This document shows, piece by piece, positions 4,481 through 21,196 of a stretch of DNA of 25,338 nucleotides (the first letter of the stretch is position 1; every line of letters starts with the position of its first letter). The DNA lies in assembly GCA_018897155.1 (NCBI GenBank), contig JAHILE010000015.1:1-25338 (forward strand). Direction: 5' to 3'. This DNA is from Nanoarchaeota archaeon. Its GTDB lineage: Archaea; EX4484-52; LFW-46. The position numbers and the translations under genes are program-made. Under the pieces are notes generated by a model, which did not search any database, was not told where the DNA came from, and saw only the letters and a list, made by a program, of their open reading frames with translations.

Positions 4481-5326
4481 GTGATTTTTCTGAAAACAAC
4501 AGACATTCTTGAAAAATACGGCATCGCGCCAAATCCCGACGCAGACCAGCATTTTATGATTGACGAAAAAATGCTGAAAAAGATAGTGTCTGCCGCGAAA
4601 CTAAAAAAAGGCGATGTTGTTCTTGAAATCGGCGCAGGCGTAGGAAACCTTACGAAACTGCTTGCAGAAAAAGCGAAGAAAGTCTATGCGATTGAAAAAG
4701 ACAATGCGCTTTCCAGCACGCTAAAGAAAGAAACCGCAGAATTTGGCAATATTGAAATCATCATTGCAGACGCGTTGAAAGTGAAGCTTCCGCAGTTTGA
4801 CAAGCTCGTCTCAAACCTGCCATATCAAATATGTGAAGCACTATTGCAAAGGCTTATTTTTACGGATTTTGCGCTCGCGGTTATCTGCGTTCCGGAAAAG
4901 TTTGCCGAACGGATTCTTGCAAAGAGCAACGATAAAAATTATTCGATCCTATCCATCAAATCACAGATATTCTTTGACATCAAATTGATTGCAGAGGTTC
5001 CGCGCAATTGCTTCTTTCCAGTGCCGCGCGTGAACTCTAAAGTCGTTTCGATAGCACCTAAAAAAAAGCCCGGTTTCTTTGGATATTTCCTCCAGGAATT
5101 CTTACGAGAGGATGACAAAATTGCAAAAAACGCAATGCGAGAAGCAGTGATATTCGCATCTAAAAGAACCGGCGCAAAGGAGATTCTGACAAAAAGAAGC
5201 GCAAAAGAGATTGTAGAAAAACTAAAACTGGTTCCGGAGACTCTTGAAAAAAGAGTTTCATCGCTAAATAGGAATGACGTTTCGTCAATAATCGAATGTG
5301 TAAAAAAGGCTTGCAACAATTATTAA
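4481..5326 (+). CDS. rsmA: 16S rRNA dimethyladenosine transferase (Dim1/KsgA)
   Basis: 281 residues. The enzyme dimethylates two adjacent adenines in the 3' helix of 16S rRNA during small-subunit assembly. The family N-terminal motif appears as 'QHFMID' (23-28), although the preceding Gly of the usual 'LGQ' is Asp here. SAM motif I is 'VLEIGAGVGNLT' (47-58), with acidic E72 and D97. The catalytic motif 'SNLPY' ends at residue 115. The start is uncertain. GTG 4481 keeps the frame open, but GTGAT at that very place looks exactly like the Shine-Dalgarno used by other genes here, which would put initiation a few codons later, where only CTG is available. The gene follows cysS after 3 bases. Confidence 0.94.
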   Translation: MIFLKTTDILEKYGIAPNPDADQHFMIDEKMLKKIVSAAKLKKGDVVLEIGAGVGNLTKLLAEKAKKVYAIEKDNALSSTLKKETAEFGNIEIIIADALKVKLPQFDKLVSNLPYQICEALLQRLIFTDFALAVICVPEKFAERILAKSNDKNYSILSIKSQIFFDIKLIAEVPRNCFFPVPRVNSKVVSIAPKKKPGFFGYFLQEFLREDDKIAKNAMREAVIFASKRTGAKEILTKRSAKEIVEKLKLVPETLEKRVSSLNRNDVSSIIECVKKACNNY

Positions 5327-10111: not shown

Positions 10112-10258
10112 GATTATACAAAACACTTTCAATAGTTTAGGTCGCGCTTCAGCGCGGAGCAAACCTTGAAATGGCTTGAAACTCAAACAGGCCGCGGTAC
10201 GCAAGAGTTTCATGACTTTTTCTTTGAAAGAACGCGTGAAACTTATGGAGTGCCTAAT
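10112..10258 (+). promoter_or_regulatory. uvrA leader: TATA-like box, 5' hairpin, three alternating complementary arms, Shine-Dalgarno
   Basis: GATTATACA near 10112 could be the TATA box, giving a start near 10140. The RNA would begin with a GC hairpin: CGCGC (10143-10147), loop TTCA, GCGCG (10152-10156). Then come arm A TGAAACTC (10177-10184), arm B GAGTTTCA (10205-10212) and arm C TGAAACT (10237-10243). B is fully complementary to both A and C, so two exclusive hairpins are possible. The B-C hairpin ends 3 nt before GGAGTG (10247-10252), the ribosome binding site for ATG 10259. The frame is also open back to 10166, so part of this could instead be coding. Regulation is an inference. Confidence 0.35.
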
Positions 10259-13246
10259 ATGCAAGACGATAAAATCATAATTCGCGGAGCGCGAGAGCAC
10301 AACCTGAAAAACATAGACGTAGCCATACCGCGCAACAAATTGGTTGTGATAACCGGAGTCTCAGGCTCAGGAAAATCAACTCTTGCATTCGATACGCTTT
10401 ATGCTGAAGGCCAGCGCAGATATGTTGAATCTTTGTCGCCTTATGCAAGACAGTTTCTAGGCCTTATGAACAAACCGGATGTCGATTCTATCGACGGATT
10501 ATCGCCGGCAATATCTATTGATCAAAAAACCACAAGCAAGAACCCGCGCTCAACTGTGGGGACTGTAACTGAAATTTATGATTATTTGCGCCTTCTTTTT
10601 GCAAGAATCGGCCATCCTCACTGCCCTGTCTGCGGCGATGAAATCAGGCCGCAAAGCGTGGATGAAATCGTTGAGCAAATCATGAAAATGCCCGAAGGCA
10701 CAAAGGTCCAGATACTGTCGCCGGTCATTCGCCAGAGAAAGGGCGAATACACAACGCTTGTCAAAGAATTCTTAAAAAAAGGATTCACAAAAATCCGTGT
10801 GAATGGAGTGCCCGAGAATTCAAATGAAGAAATAAGGCTTGACAAACAGAAAAAGCACAGCATTGAAATCATTGTTGACCGGCTCGTCATCGGCCCCGAA
10901 ATAAAGACACGGCTTTCTGATTCGGTAGAAACCGCGCTGCGCGAGGCAGAAGGGCTTGTTCTTATTGTTGAAGGTCGTGAAAATCCTTCGGATTTTCAAG
11001 CCATTTCAAAGTTGAAGCGCGAAGCTTCAACATTTGAAAGAAAAAACGAGACGCTTTACAGCCAGAAATTCGCATGCCCAAAAGACAACGTATCCTTGCC
11101 TGAATTCACTCCGCGAATGTTCTCGTTTAACAGCCCTTTCGGCGCTTGCCCCGAATGCCAGGGACTTGGAGTGAAGCTGGAATTTGATGTCGACCTGATA
11201 ATCCCTGACAAAAATATTACAATCCGCGAAGGCGCGATTAAGCCCTGGAGCGGAAGCTTCAAATCATTCTATATGCAAAGGCTCGAAGCTGTTGCAGAGC
11301 AATATGGCTTCAGAGCAGACACGCCGATAAAAGACCTCAAAAAGGAAGAGCTAAACATTATTCTTTATGGCTCGGGCGGCGAGAAAGTAAGAACCGAATA
11401 CCTGCAAGAGTCCGGAAGCAGCTGGGTAACAAATACTGTCTTTGAAGGTGTGGTGAACAATCTCAAGCGGCTCTATTCCGAGACAAAATCAGAAGCGCGC
11501 AAAGAAGAAATAATGGAATACATGCGCGAGAATCCGTGCATGATGTGCCGCGGAAAAAGGCTGAAAAAAGAAGTGCTTGCAGTGACTGTTGCTGAAAAGT
11601 CCATAATGGAAATAACTGGCATGCCGATCAAAAACTGCCTTGAATTTTTCGACAGCCTTAGCAACAAGCTGACTGAACGCGAAAGGACAATTGCAAAGCT
11701 CATATTGAAAGAGATAAACGCGCGCCTTGAATTCATGATGAATGTGGGCCTGGATTATTTGACTCTATCGCGCGCGTCGGGAACATTATCCGGCGGCGAG
11801 GCGCAGCGGATAAGGCTTGCAACGCAGATTGGCTCAAACCTTGTCGGCGTGATGTATGTCCTGGATGAGCCAAGTATCGGGCTGCACCAGCGCGACAATA
11901 CAAAACTAATAGGCACGCTAAAGCGCCTGCGCGACTTGGGAAATACCGTAATAGTTGTAGAGCATGACGAAGAAACCATGATTGCTTCGGATCATTTGAT
12001 TGACATGGGTCCGGGCGCAGGAGTGCACGGCGGACATGTTGTCGCAGAGGGAACGCCTGAAGAAATTATGCGAAACGAAAAATCGCTGACAGGACAGTAT
12101 CTTGTCGGGAAAAAATCAATACCTTTGCCTGAAAGAAGGCGCGCCTTCAGCAAGTGCCTGATAATAAATGGCGCATCAGAAAACAACCTGAAAAATATTG
12201 ATGTTCGAATTCCGCTTGGAGTCCTTGTGTGCATCACAGGCGTGTCAGGCTCTGGAAAATCAACGCTGATTACAGACACGCTGTACGCTGCATTGATGCA
12301 TAGATTGTATGGCTCGCGCGAAACTGTCGGAAGATACAAATCGCTTGAAGGCATCCACAATATTGACAAAGTTATTGCAGTAGACCAATCCCCGATTGGA
12401 AGAACGCCAAGGTCTAATCCTGCGACATACACCAAATTATTCGGAGACATCAGGGATTTGTTCGCAATAACTCCGGATGCACGGCAGCGCGGCTATGGCC
12501 CCGGACGCTTCAGCTTTAATGTTCCTGTCGGCAGATGCAGCGCGTGCGAAGGTGAAGGTGTGATAAAAATCGAGATGCATTTTCTGGCAGATATATACAT
12601 GCCCTGCGAAGTGTGCAAGGGAAAGCGCTATTCATCAGAAACCCTTGAAGTGAAATACAAGGGAAAATCAATTGCAGATGTGCTTGATATGACTGTAGAT
12701 GAGGCATTTACGTTCTTTGAAGCAGTGCCTAATATCTCGAGAAAGTTAGAGACTTTGCGCGATGTTGGCCTTGGCTACATGAAACTCGGACAGCCTGCGA
12801 CAACTTTATCAGGAGGCGAGGCGCAAAGAATTAAACTGACATCAGAGCTTTCAAAAAGAGGAACCGGAAGAACTATGTATATACTGGATGAGCCGACAAC
12901 AGGATTGCATTTTGACGACGTGAAAAAGCTTCTTTCTGTGCTAAACAGGCTTGCAGAACGCGGGAACACTGTTGTTGTAATCGAGCACAATCTTGATGTC
13001 ATAAAAACCGCAGACTGGGTGATTGATTTGGGGCCTGATGGCGGCGACGCCGGAGGGCGCGTGATTGCCGCCGGTACGCCGGAGGAAGTTGCGGGATTCG
13101 CGCAGTCCTACACAGGGCATTTTTTGAAAAAGGTTTTGAACCATTCACCAACGTCTTTGGGTTCAAAAGCTTCGAGCGATAGCGAGATGATTTTGAAAGC
13201 GACTCAGGCGCGGGAAAGCGATGAGGAAGTGGATGAGTTGGAATGA
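10259..13246 (+). CDS. uvrA: Excinuclease ABC subunit A
   Basis: 995 residues from ATG 10259 (Shine-Dalgarno GGAGTG at 10247); bacterial UvrA is about 940. UvrA finds bulky DNA lesions and loads UvrB. Two ABC modules are complete: Walker A 'GVSGSGKST' at 33-41 and again in the second half, signatures '[10 protein letters not shown]' twice, and '[12 protein letters not shown]' and '[12 protein letters not shown]' Walker B regions. Zinc sites include 'CPVC', 'CMMC', 'CSAC' and 'CEVC', but in the pair 'FACPKD...ACPEC' one Cys is Asp. Two stretches look inserted. One is about 17 residues near 240-260, ahead of 'KFACP', built on strong palindromes. The other is a 37-residue tail after the natural end '[11 protein letters not shown]', built on a repeat shared with uvrC. 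uvrC and uvrB lie 6-11 kb downstream. Confidence 0.97.
10978..11039 (+). repeat. Palindromic element inside uvrA (internal)
   Basis: Two adjacent hairpins within the coding sequence. The first has arms GAAAATCC and GGATTTTC around a 3-nt loop (about 10979-10997). The second has arms TTTCAAA-GTTGAAGC (11004-11018) and GCTTCAAC-A-TTTGAAA (11024-11039) around loop GCGAA: 15 base pairs with one bulged A. The encoded residues ('[17 protein letters not shown]') fall where bacterial UvrA is about 17 residues shorter, from memory of E. coli UvrA. Confidence 0.6.
13132..13197 (+). repeat. Palindromic repeat element at the 3' end of uvrA
   Basis: One full unit. Outer arms TTTTGAACC (13134-13142) and GGTTCAAAA (13160-13168) are perfectly complementary across 17 nt. 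They are followed by GCTTCGAGCGATAGC, an imperfect hairpin, and then GAGATGATTTTGAA. The same order of blocks occurs in uvrC at 20637-20712, with identical 14-base starts and the same spacing to the central block. It encodes the C-terminal extension of UvrA. Confidence 0.7.
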
Positions 13247-13273: not shown

Positions 13274-13741
13274 ATGTTAAAGAAATTAACGATTGAAAAA
13301 ATGAAAAAGATTGCAGTATCTCGTGGGGGATTGTGTCTTTCTGATAGCTATATTACTGCTAAAACAAAAATCCGTTGGCGTTGTAAGGGAGGACATGAAT
13401 GGACTGCAAGTCCAGATAGTGTAAAACATGGCGCATGGTGTCCAAAATGTGCCGTTAAAGCAAATGGAATAAAAAAACGATTAACTATTGAAGAACTGAA
13501 AAAAATAGCAATCTCTCGTGGCGGGTTATGCCTTTCTGAAACATATGTAAATGCAAAAACTAAACTTCATTGGAGATGTAAAGAGAATCATGAGCGGGTT
13601 AGTACACCGCTAAGTGTGAAATATGCGGGTACTTGGTGCCCTATTTGCGCTATTGAAGTTAGAACGAATAAAAAAGTGTATGCGCGCGCACCAGAAACTG
13701 CTAAAAAACCTTTTAAACATTCTAGTCAACACATACACTGA
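13274..13741 (+). CDS. Tandem treble-clef/zinc-ribbon repeat protein
   Basis: 155 residues made of two near-identical units of about 55 residues. Each unit reads L-T-I-E-x-(L/M)-K-K-I-A-(V/I)-S-R-G-G-L-C-L-S, then 'AKTK..WRC', a His, and ends in 'WCP.CA'. The W-x-C...H...W-C-P-x-C pattern is a zinc-binding treble-clef-like module of a kind found in phage, plasmid and homing-endonuclease-linked proteins; I do not recall a proven function. The second unit has lost the Gly-His-Trp of 'GGHEW' ('ENHERV'). A basic 27-residue tail follows. No nuclease domain is visible, so this may be a DNA-binding remnant. GAGGAAG at 13264 is a good Shine-Dalgarno. Its codons are more AT-rich than those of uvrA just upstream, which suggests transfer. 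Confidence 0.7.
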   Translation: MLKKLTIEKMKKIAVSRGGLCLSDSYITAKTKIRWRCKGGHEWTASPDSVKHGAWCPKCAVKANGIKKRLTIEELKKIAISRGGLCLSETYVNAKTKLHWRCKENHERVSTPLSVKYAGTWCPICAIEVRTNKKVYARAPETAKKPFKHSSQHIH

Positions 13742-13919: not shown

Positions 13920-14369
13920 ATGGAAAAAATCTCAAAAGAAATCATTAAACAAGTAATAGAAATAATCAAAGATCTGCACAAAACTGCAACAGGATATGAA
14001 CCGGAAAAGAATTTGAGGAGCGAAAGCGATTTGGAGCACATAGTGTACGAGGCAATAAAACTGGGGCAAAAGATATCTCACGGAAACGATCGGAATCCAA
14101 ATAATGCGGAAGTCGGAACATTTTTAATGCATGAAATCACCACAAGGCACCCTTTCTTTGATGGCAATAAAAGAACTGCATTAATGACTTTTTTGTATTT
14201 TAGGTACATTGAATTAAGTATAAATTTAACTTTTGAAAAAATTGATGTTCATTTCCCGAAGTCTTGGGATAACAAAGACGATAAAGTCGTCAATTTTATG
14301 CTTGAGCTTGCTCAAAGAAAGTATACGTACGACGAAGCATTAAAATTCGTTAGAGAAACATTTAAATAA
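13920..14369 (+). CDS. Fic/Doc-family protein (putative toxin)
   Basis: 149 residues. The Fic motif 'HPFFDGNKRTA' (77-87) gives catalytic H77 and the phosphate-binding 'DGNKR'. The Lys in place of the second Gly is the Doc-type variant, whereas true Doc has Ala at the first Gly position. Fic enzymes transfer AMP to target hydroxyls; Doc phosphorylates EF-Tu. The compact length fits death-on-curing toxins rather than large Fic proteins. I see no inhibitory (S/T)xxxE(G/N) motif in the chain, so an external antitoxin might be expected. The only candidate partners are tiny ORFs on either side (13765-13914, 14381-14512); no Phd-like gene precedes it. It lies in a patch of lower coding density next to the zinc-repeat gene, which suggests accessory DNA. 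Confidence 0.85.
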   Translation: MEKISKEIIKQVIEIIKDLHKTATGYEPEKNLRSESDLEHIVYEAIKLGQKISHGNDRNPNNAEVGTFLMHEITTRHPFFDGNKRTALMTFLYFRYIELSINLTFEKIDVHFPKSWDNKDDKVVNFMLELAQRKYTYDEALKFVRETFK

Positions 14370-19513: not shown

Positions 19514-21196
19514 TCATTTAATGTTCTTTCTTCTCAAAAGTTTATGGTATGATATCGCAAACCTGTGCGCTTCATCCCTCATTCTTTGCATCAGCCGGAG
19601 CGCCGCGCTTCTTCGCTCGAGAATAAGCGGCTTTGCTCGCCCGGGAAGATATATTTCCTCCTCGCGCTTTGCAAGAGCAGCCAAAGGAATATCAACGCCT
19701 ACGTCAGCCATTGCAGAGATTGCTGCGCTTAGTTGCGGCGCGCCTCCGTCAACAACAACCAAATTCGGCAATGGCTTGTTTTCGCGCACAAGACGGGAGT
19801 ACCTTCGCCAGACAATTTCCTGCATTGAAGCGAAATCGTCCTGCCCTGGAACACCCAATATCCTGAAGCGGCGGTAATTGGATTTATCCGGCTCAGCATT
19901 CCTGAACTGCACCATGGCGCCGACAAGCCATTTTCCAGATATATTTGACACGTCAAAGAATTCAATAACAATTGGCACTGACGAAAGTCCGAGAGCATCT
20001 TTTAACTCTATGAGTTCTGCGGCGCATTTCGCGCCAATGTCGTGAGTTATGTTTTTCAAGAGCATCTCAAGAATCTTCTTTTTGGTTCCTGCCTTTGGCA
20101 CAGAAAGCTCAACCATTTTTCCTGAAATCGTTCCAAAATAATCCGCAAGAACTCTAATATCTTTTGGCTCCTCGGGCAGAATTATTTTTTCCGGCATCGG
20201 AGCGCTGTAATAATGCAGCTTCAAAAAATCAGCCAAAAATTTGCGCGGCTCGTCCTGAGATTTTGCCTCATGCTTTGTCCGGCCCAAAAGAATGCCTCGC
20301 CGGATGTTGAAAACCTGCACAAAATATATGCCGTCTGCGCGCACGTAATTGATAACATCCTCATTATATTCCCGCTCGCGATCAATTTTCTGGCGCACTG
20401 AAAGGATTTCAACAGACGCGATTTCATCGCGGTAAATTTTTGCTGCTTCGTAATTCTGTGCGCTTGATGCCCCTCGCATTTTTTCGCGCAAATCAAGAAT
20501 CACATCATCAACATTTCCGCGCAAAAATGAAACCGCTTTCTCGACATTTTTTCTATAATCCTCTTTTGTTATATTTTCTATGCATGGCTCGCTGCATTTT
20601 CCTGTGAAGCAGGAAAAGCTTCGAGCGAAGCGAGATGATTTTGAACCATTCATAATTTGCATTGGGTTCGAAAGCTTCGAGTGAAGCGCAGCGGAACGAG
20701 ATGATAATTTTGTGTCGTGCTTGAGGCATCTGTATTTTGGCAGTGCCCTACAAATCCGGATGCCAAATATCTCAATAGCCAATTTCACGGCTCTGCGCGC
20801 TGATTTTACATCCGTATATGGACCAAGATATAAAGACACCTTACTCTTTTTCTCGCGCGTAATAAAAATTCTCGGAAACTCTTCCTCAAGCGTAATTCTG
20901 ATATGCGGATAGCCCGAGCTGTCCTTCAAATCTATGTTATATTTGGGCTTGTGCTCCCAAATAAGCTTTGCCTCAAGAATTAAGGCCTCGACTTCGTTGT
21001 CGGTAATTATATATTCAATGCTTTCTGCTTCCTGAATGAGCTGGCTGGTTTTCATATCATGCGGCCGTGATGGAGTATATGATGCTACGCGCTTTCTTAT
21101 GTTCTTTGCCTTGCCGACGTAGATGATAACCGCTTCAGAATTGCGCATGATATAAATGCCCGGTTCATTTGGGGCTTTGTTCGTATTTTTGAGCAT
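19514..21196 (-). CDS. uvrC: Excinuclease ABC subunit C, no HhH domain, with in-frame insertion
   Basis: 560 residues; UvrC makes both incisions in nucleotide excision repair. The N-terminal GIY-YIG nuclease domain (about 9-90) shows 'PGIYIMRN', 'IIYVGKAKNIRKRV' and the Glu near 'NEVEALILEAKLI'. The Cys cluster is 'RCL' plus 'GKCSEPC'. A UVR motif lies near 240-265. The RNase H-like second nuclease shows 'FFDVSNISG', 'LVVVDGG' and 'RDEAHRFA'. The chain ends soon after that last motif, so the C-terminal helix-hairpin-helix pair of typical UvrC is missing and there is no room for it before the next gene. Residues about 160-195 are an extra Ser/Lys-rich stretch between the Cys motifs, encoded by the palindromic repeat. 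It is divergent from DUF1232 and next to uvrB. Confidence 0.96.
   Translation of the reverse strand: MLKNTNKAPNEPGIYIMRNSEAVIIYVGKAKNIRKRVASYTPSRPHDMKTSQLIQEAESIEYIITDNEVEALILEAKLIWEHKPKYNIDLKDSSGYPHIRITLEEEFPRIFITREKKSKVSLYLGPYTDVKSARRAVKLAIEIFGIRICRALPKYRCLKHDTKLSSRSAALHSKLSNPMQIMNGSKSSRFARSFSCFTGKCSEPCIENITKEDYRKNVEKAVSFLRGNVDDVILDLREKMRGASSAQNYEAAKIYRDEIASVEILSVRQKIDREREYNEDVINYVRADGIYFVQVFNIRRGILLGRTKHEAKSQDEPRKFLADFLKLHYYSAPMPEKIILPEEPKDIRVLADYFGTISGKMVELSVPKAGTKKKILEMLLKNITHDIGAKCAAELIELKDALGLSSVPIVIEFFDVSNISGKWLVGAMVQFRNAEPDKSNYRRFRILGVPGQDDFASMQEIVWRRYSRLVRENKPLPNLVVVDGGAPQLSAAISAMADVGVDIPLAALAKREEEIYLPGRAKPLILERRSAALRLMQRMRDEAHRFAISYHKLLRRKNIK
20612..20719. repeat. Double palindromic repeat element inside uvrC
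   Basis: A 108-base stretch holding a partial unit followed by a full unit. Unit A: AAAGCTTCGAGCGAAGC (from 20615), with a perfect GCTTCG/CGAAGC hairpin, then GAGATGA. Unit B: TTTTGAACC (20639-20647) paired with GGTTCGAAA (20665-20673, one mismatch), then GCTTCGAGTGAAGC and, after a 9-base insertion, GAGATGAT. The unit matches the one at the end of uvrA block by block. Here it lies in the opposite orientation relative to the coding strand, yet keeps the frame open and encodes the extra UvrC residues. Confidence 0.75.

Follow-up and report, generated by a model that had tools for sequence, protein, structure and literature searches.

How did the uvrC gene of a DPANN archaeon come to be 36 codons longer than the same gene in its relatives? 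The extra segment keeps the reading frame, is free of stop codons, and contains sequence that is also found at the end of uvrA. The segment may serve UvrC as a protein, or it may be a repeat that has settled in the gene. Here, we describe the insert, the family of repeats to which it belongs, and possible ways in which such a repeat could spread.

The window, i.e., the whole 25,338-nt stretch of DNA that was analysed, comes from a draft assembly of 1.43 Mb in 62 contigs, which we refer to as G000. The principal comparison is with LFW-46 (G001), a genome of the same genus. LFW-46 has been placed in p__EX4484-52, a DPANN lineage that is sister to Nanohaloarchaeota, and its genome has been described as reduced and host-dependent (PMC8561730). 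The assignment of G000 to this lineage is based solely on its kinship with LFW-46. We consider it highly probable that a non-coding mobile element of ~40–66 bp, present as two copies arranged head to tail, makes up the uvrC insert, an explanation that takes in both the selfishness of the element and the steps of its spread given below. The best reading is of a selfish element that is recognised by its structure and tolerated when frame-neutral, making it an archaeal analogue of Rickettsia palindromic elements (RPEs) and intragenic REPs.

The uvrC insert and the uvrA tail

The uvrC gene (19514–21196, (−) strand) has Pfam matches for the GIY-YIG, UVR and RNase H domains, and domains are found on both sides of the insert. 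Alignment with uvrC of G001 leaves a DNA gap of exactly 108 bp, at 20600–20707. Protein alignment gives one extra block of exactly 36 residues, which is missing from all 18 relatives (G001 and 17 other archaeal UvrCs). The initial annotation had proposed about 36 added residues, a preserved frame, and a position between two cysteine motifs. All three proposals are borne out: 108 bp is 36 codons, and the insert lies between the pairs C149, C157 and C201, C205 (that is, between the second and third cysteine), which are invariant in 18 UvrCs. The insert had been placed at 20612–20719, a shift of ~12 nt; 20708–20719 is ordinary uvrC sequence outside the insert. In the predicted UvrC protein, the segment includes KLSSRSAALHSKLSNPMQIMNGSKSSRFARSFSCFTG. 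Residues 151–207, which include the insert, have pLDDT values below 50 in an AlphaFold model, and the insert is modelled as a disordered loop.

The core strand of the insert is the (+) strand, antisense to uvrC. Read on this strand, the insert consists of two tandem units, each with one variable perfect hairpin (hp1) followed by one core hairpin (AAAAGCTTCGAG..CGAGATGATTTT). By hairpin parsing, unit 1 (42 nt, 20597–20638) has the variable hairpin TTTTCCTGT-gaa-GCAGGAAAA (20597–20617, also found by DNA folding) and then the core AGCTTCGAGCGAAGCGAGATGA, which is matched by pattern as AGCTTCGAGCGAAGCGAGATGAT at 20617–20639. Unit 2 (66 nt, 20639–20704) has a variable hairpin of the long class with an internal loop, TTTTGAACC-17 nt-GGTTCGAAA (20639–20673), and then a 32-nt core, matched as AGCTTCGAGTGAAGCGCAGCGGAACGAGATGAT at 20673–20705. 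Neither core match is expected by chance. The insert had been described as a partial unit plus a full one, but both units are complete, at 42 bp and 66 bp. Unit 1 is short but entire and forms a hairpin of its own, TTTTCCTGTGAAGCAGGAAAA; the DNA fold of 20596–20641 has a z score of −4.15.

The strict core pattern, AGCTTCGAGN{4,30}CGAGATGAT, matches three times in the window (at 13168, 20617 and 20673), with 0.00 matches expected in shuffles, in agreement with the original observation that repeated units occur in both uvrC and uvrA. The third match (13168–13191) falls in uvrA (10166–13246, (+) strand, identified by Pfam), in a 57-nt, in-frame tail unit at 13134–13190 that comprises TTTTGAACC-17 nt-GGTTCAAAA and a 23-nt core on the (+) strand. 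As first noted, orientation differs between the two genes: all cores are on the (+) strand, sense to uvrA and antisense to uvrC. The uvrA copy is a C-terminal extension rather than an internal insertion, with orthologues stopping before the unit, at FLRKVLGKPNR or similar. The units are indeed stop-free in both genes; this is not noteworthy in itself, since copies of the element, including intergenic ones, are typically open in three to five of the six frames. The window also encodes homologues of OapB and OapC, which mark the genome as archaeal. A Zn-ribbon repeat ORF at 13274–13741 adjoins an ORF at 13920–14369, in which the motif HPFFDGNKRTA, typical of Fic/Doc proteins, was recognised by eye.

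Copy number and anatomy of the element

The strict core occurs 34 times in G000 and 21 times in G001, with no match to the reversed pattern. A broader grammar, AAAGCTT-[free stem]-ATGATTT, occurs 70 times in G000 and 76 times in G001, and its reversed pattern has no match in either genome. Genomes of family f7 have 6–40 copies of this AAAGCTT..ATGATTT type, and the rest of the order has few. Only in the genus itself is there a sister type, AAAGCC..GGATTT (29 copies in G000 and 42 in G001). When genome contigs were scanned with the strict pattern, the matches listed were mostly from scattered unrelated bacteria and from the archaea LFW-46 and CSMAG_334. We judge the bacterial matches to be chance, from their scattered taxonomy, and gave no weight to 49 single matches in viral contigs. 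The window and nine copy-bearing loci had no Rfam match at the gathering threshold.

The hp1 hairpin is perfect and has the form TTTT-arm-loop-arm-AAAA, with a loop that is either short (3–5 nt) or longer. The core is laid out as AGCTTCGAG-stem/loop-CGAGATGA. It folds into four A-T pairs, a G.A mismatch, C-G, T.T, T-A and C-G, followed by tandem G.A/A.G and G-C, and then a variable stem, which is TTCGC/GCGAA, TTTGC/GCAAA, or one pair (C-G, T-A or T.G). The G.A mismatch is conserved in the core hairpin, AAAAGCTT-[stem]-ATGATTTT, and the strict subtype adds tandem G.A pairs (CGAG/CGAG). The AAAGC/GATTT ends belong to the search patterns, meaning that their invariance is partly by construction. 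Chains of hp1-core-hp1-core are frequent, the uvrC pair among them, and a tandem array with 57-bp spacing is found on contig C59 of G000. This array (positions 2170–2317) has three tandem units, ~57 bp apart, and opens a gene for a putative membrane protein, in which it gives the N-terminal peptide repeat KSSRSAIASLEAFEGSLTS.

Structure, rather than sequence, is maintained

We gathered 64 strict copies from G000, G001 and three other genomes. Because the A/T feet are fixed in the search pattern, only the free stem counts as evidence. In 63 copies, 287 of 313 variable stem cells form Watson-Crick pairs, as compared with a mean of 157 and a maximum of 176 in column shuffles. With 31 distinct copies aligned, 94.1% of cells pair, and there are 47 doubly changed paired cells versus 17 in shuffles. 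None of 500 shuffles reaches 47, and the optimum at register 0 is sharp, with every slid register far worse. Similarly, 45 different left arms occur among the hp1 hairpins of 63 copies; the median pairing score of hp1 is 8, as compared with a mean of 3.7 after shuffling of the upstream sequence. The arms of the element are held by base pairing, not by sequence. The early suggestion that structure is what is maintained, and not protein sequence, therefore holds at the level of the family: the arms covary, the segment is conserved in no relative, and frames differ between genes. The opposite combination, a lack of covariation and a segment conserved as protein, was not found.

The wobble pairs are informative with regard to the strand. 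The pair that comes first within the CGAG/CGAG motif is T.G in five cases and C.A in none; in the order-wide set, there are eight cases of G.T and two of A.C. Since the wobble pairs sit on the AAAGC..GATTT strand, that strand is probably the one that folds, either as RNA or as single-stranded DNA. For unit 2 and the uvrA unit, each folded alone, single-sequence fold energies are weak, with z about −0.6 to −1.1 for most strands, and the (+) strand of the uvrA unit, folded as DNA, reaches a z score of −2.5. Given this general weakness, the argument is made from covariation instead.

Insertions in genes are frame-neutral

Empty sites in sister genomes, which the initial annotation proposed to look for, were found. 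Comparison of G000 and G001 yields 13 orthologous filled/empty pairs, and all 13 insert lengths are multiples of 3 (p = 6e-7). The inserts are stop-free, in both orientations and several frames. They are found in UvrC (108 bp, filled in G000), RlmH (66 bp), a methyltransferase (57 bp, locus L006, filled in G000), the same methyltransferase at another site (42 bp, locus L315, filled in G001), RsmA/KsgA (105 bp, a length taken from the 35-aa protein gap, as the DNA aligner split the gap), topoisomerase I (TopoI; 42 bp), a 4Fe-4S ferredoxin (57 bp, i.e., 19 aa; locus L069 on contig C3 of G000), a HerA-like ATPase (42 bp), PEP synthase (PpsA; 42 bp), a family-2 glycosyltransferase (90 bp), ValRS (42 bp), GluRS (57 bp, filled in G001), and an aminotransferase (57 bp). 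No intragenic site is common to G000 and G001. With 13 filled/empty pairs and none common to both species, the element is dispersed and recent.

Several of these genes have features of their own. The methyltransferase carries the element in both species, at different sites, with each site empty in the other species. The window contains a second RsmA/KsgA-like dimethyltransferase gene (4481–5326), without an insert; the 35-aa insert is in the other copy (locus L024). In the ferredoxin, the insert lies within the cysteine motifs and immediately precedes KCGICAEMCP, which is a surprisingly sensitive position for it.

Unit length is a multiple of 3 for 17 of 19 genic copies, versus 20 of 44 other copies (Fisher p = 0.0017), with the genic set chosen by hand from ORF context and homology; the two genic exceptions are compound inserts. 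Because genic but not other copies favour multiples of 3, length is not intrinsically tripled; rather, genes retain the units that are harmless. One core has many readings across genes (KSSR.., NHLA.., IIS.., KASS..), and the mixture of orientations and frames means that no peptide is conserved. The retention of frame suggests that genic copies are read through as a flexible loop.

Insertion is at T-rich (ATTT-like) sites, in either orientation. The flanks of empty sites are T-rich, typically with ATTT preceding the insert and GATG|ATTT following it, and are compatible with an ATTT-like duplication of 2–5 bp. Such a target duplication is likely, and may be strictly 4 bp, although it is inseparable from the element's own ends, which carry the same bases. 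Presence and absence were compared at ~70–80% nucleotide identity, which blurs the exact junctions and any target duplication. The pattern of presence and absence in orthologous genes points to mobility, and we infer that the element is selfish.

Possible mechanisms of mobilisation

The following steps probably account for the distribution of the element. First, an enzyme or host pathway would recognise a folded single strand, of DNA or RNA, that bears AAAGC..GATTT. Second, the recognised strand would be inserted at T-rich, ATTT-like sites. The T-rich motif that serves as the target is also the end of every unit, so that repeated insertion would build chains such as the uvrC pair. Third, purifying selection on host genes would leave only those insertions that are frame-neutral, stop-free and in permissive loops. 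A bolder proposal can be made, tentatively and with some doubt: mobilisation of this ~40-nt element may depend on the shape of its two hairpins and hardly on their sequence. Some archaeal enzyme, or a process of replication, would take the folded strand and insert it at ATTT-like sites, including the element's own end (hence the chains), and would thereby continually add random loops to essential proteins.

An alternative, which we regard as unlikely, is that the element is of the REP type and is moved by an IS200/IS605-like Y1 (HUH) tyrosine transposase, either RAYT or TnpA, that recognises single-stranded DNA hairpins. Imperfect hairpins, strand asymmetry, high copy number, intragenic copies and dimers are all REP-like traits (PMC3733652), and there are three Y1_Tnp genes in G000 and one in G001. 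However, six genomes with 18–37 copies each (G012, G017, G023, G025, G029 and G031) have no Y1_Tnp match; these genomes are 74–81% complete, which weakens this result but does not remove it. Conversely, G026 and G028 have Y1_Tnp and only 0–1 copies of the element. Four Y1 loci of G000 and G001 were inspected, and none has a REPtron-like flanking core, the nearest core being ~0.9–1 kb away, at one locus. Lastly, the hairpin feet are TTTT/AAAAGC and GATGATTTT, with no GTAG or CGTC tetranucleotide seen by eye in the listed copies.

A small, SINE-like retroelement, for which a reverse transcriptase would copy a structured RNA into DNA at T-rich targets, is much less probable again. Conservation of structure on one strand, T-rich targets, possible short target duplications and the lack of terminal inverted repeats would all be expected of such an element, but of 34 genomes in the order, 33 lack RVT_1, G000 and G001 among them, and the sole positive genome, G033, has 8% contamination. 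The idea that a transposase or reverse transcriptase acts on the element was thus not confirmed, as neither Y1 nor RT tracks it.

Slightly further down the scale, the inserts might be archaeal bulge-helix-bulge introns, or segments skipped by byp-like translational bypass, with the protein made without them. Some archaeal mRNAs are spliced, and strong hairpins do lie within the coding genes. Yet excision would require neither lengths in multiples of 3 nor an absence of stop codons, and all 13 inserts have both; the occurrence of both orientations gives transcripts with different structures; and most copies are intergenic. Least credible of all is a selected protein feature of UvrC, a functional added loop or domain: the frame is preserved in essential genes and REPs recur in bacterial nucleotide-excision genes (PMC3733652), but the segment is found in no relative and is predicted to be disordered, its variation is compensatory at the nucleotide level, and the frame in which this DNA is read changes from gene to gene.

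For the preferred reading, a selfish element recognised by its structure, the strong compensatory evolution makes the question of the mobiliser testable, since any candidate must recognise a structure with a fixed foot and free arms.

Relationship to known repeats

RPEs are ~150 bp in length and have conserved encoded peptides (Ogata et al. 2000, 2002, as reviewed in PMC10969869), with related palindromes in Wolbachia; some RPE families carry a CGTC end tag (PMC3733652). Like RPEs, the archaeal element is a short palindromic repeat in the reduced genome of a host-dependent prokaryote, and is in frame in many unrelated housekeeping genes. Two traits of the Rickettsia type were found: an in-frame repeat in unrelated genes with empty orthologues, and a maintained hairpin structure. 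RPEs have no known transposase, and neither Y1 nor RT follows the archaeal element. Unlike RPEs, it has an archaeal host, a two-hairpin unit of 42–66 bp, hypervariable covarying arms, and a conserved part limited to AAAAGCTT..ATGATTTT. The ~150-bp unit and conserved peptide of RPEs are absent, the same core being read in different frames. Judged from published descriptions of RPEs, the element appears unrelated to them in sequence.

REPs, BIMEs and REPINs, with RAYT, comprise GTAG- and CGTC-tagged families (PMC3733652, PMC2817692), and intragenic REPs recur in uvrA/uvrB and tRNA synthetase genes (PMC3733652). The archaeal element resembles REPs in having imperfect hairpins of 20–40 nt, many copies, dimers, clusters and some intragenic copies. 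It differs in being an alternating chain of hairpins rather than head-to-head dimers, in lacking the GTAG/CGTC tag, and in not being tracked by a Y1 transposase. Classical MITEs are likewise very short, non-autonomous and dispersed; unlike MITEs, the element has no terminal inverted repeats at its ends, by inspection, and no related autonomous transposon was found. The coding palindromes of nematomorph mitochondria (PMC6649704) are also inverted repeats inside protein genes and presumably translated, but they are perfect, up to 284 bp long, and each confined to its gene (PMC6649704), whereas the archaeal element is one dispersed family.

A survey of REPs reports archaeal examples in intergenic regions only (PMC12306157), and our literature search, which was incomplete, returned no report of in-frame palindromic elements in archaea. 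As far as we have found, it is the element family and its archaeal host that are new, the phenomenon being already known in bacteria. In-frame selfish palindromes have so far been a bacterial curiosity, seen in Rickettsia and some REP-rich bacteria. The archaeal case is clean, as a sister genome supplies empty sites in both directions. It indicates that a further lineage of reduced, host-dependent organisms has given rise to the phenomenon, and it offers material for comparison in the search for what moves elements this small. There is also a warning for annotators: insertions of 14–36 aa in DPANN housekeeping proteins may be repeat-derived, rather than lineage-specific domains.

Associated repeats in related genomes

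A second repeat, roughly CAACCGCGATTGAGCGACGATGA, is found 3′ of core copies at several G001 loci (L270, L083 and L274). At L270, it seems to extend a gene for a 2′-5′ RNA ligase/LigT-like protein through additional in-frame repeats, by ~68 aa in total relative to the G000 match. In family f7, the long hairpins (L288–L317, in genomes G012–G033) have a loop motif near CACCAATTG in common with the long hp1 class (TTCACCAA..) of the genus to which the window belongs, a hint that the loop may hold a conserved motif for recognition.
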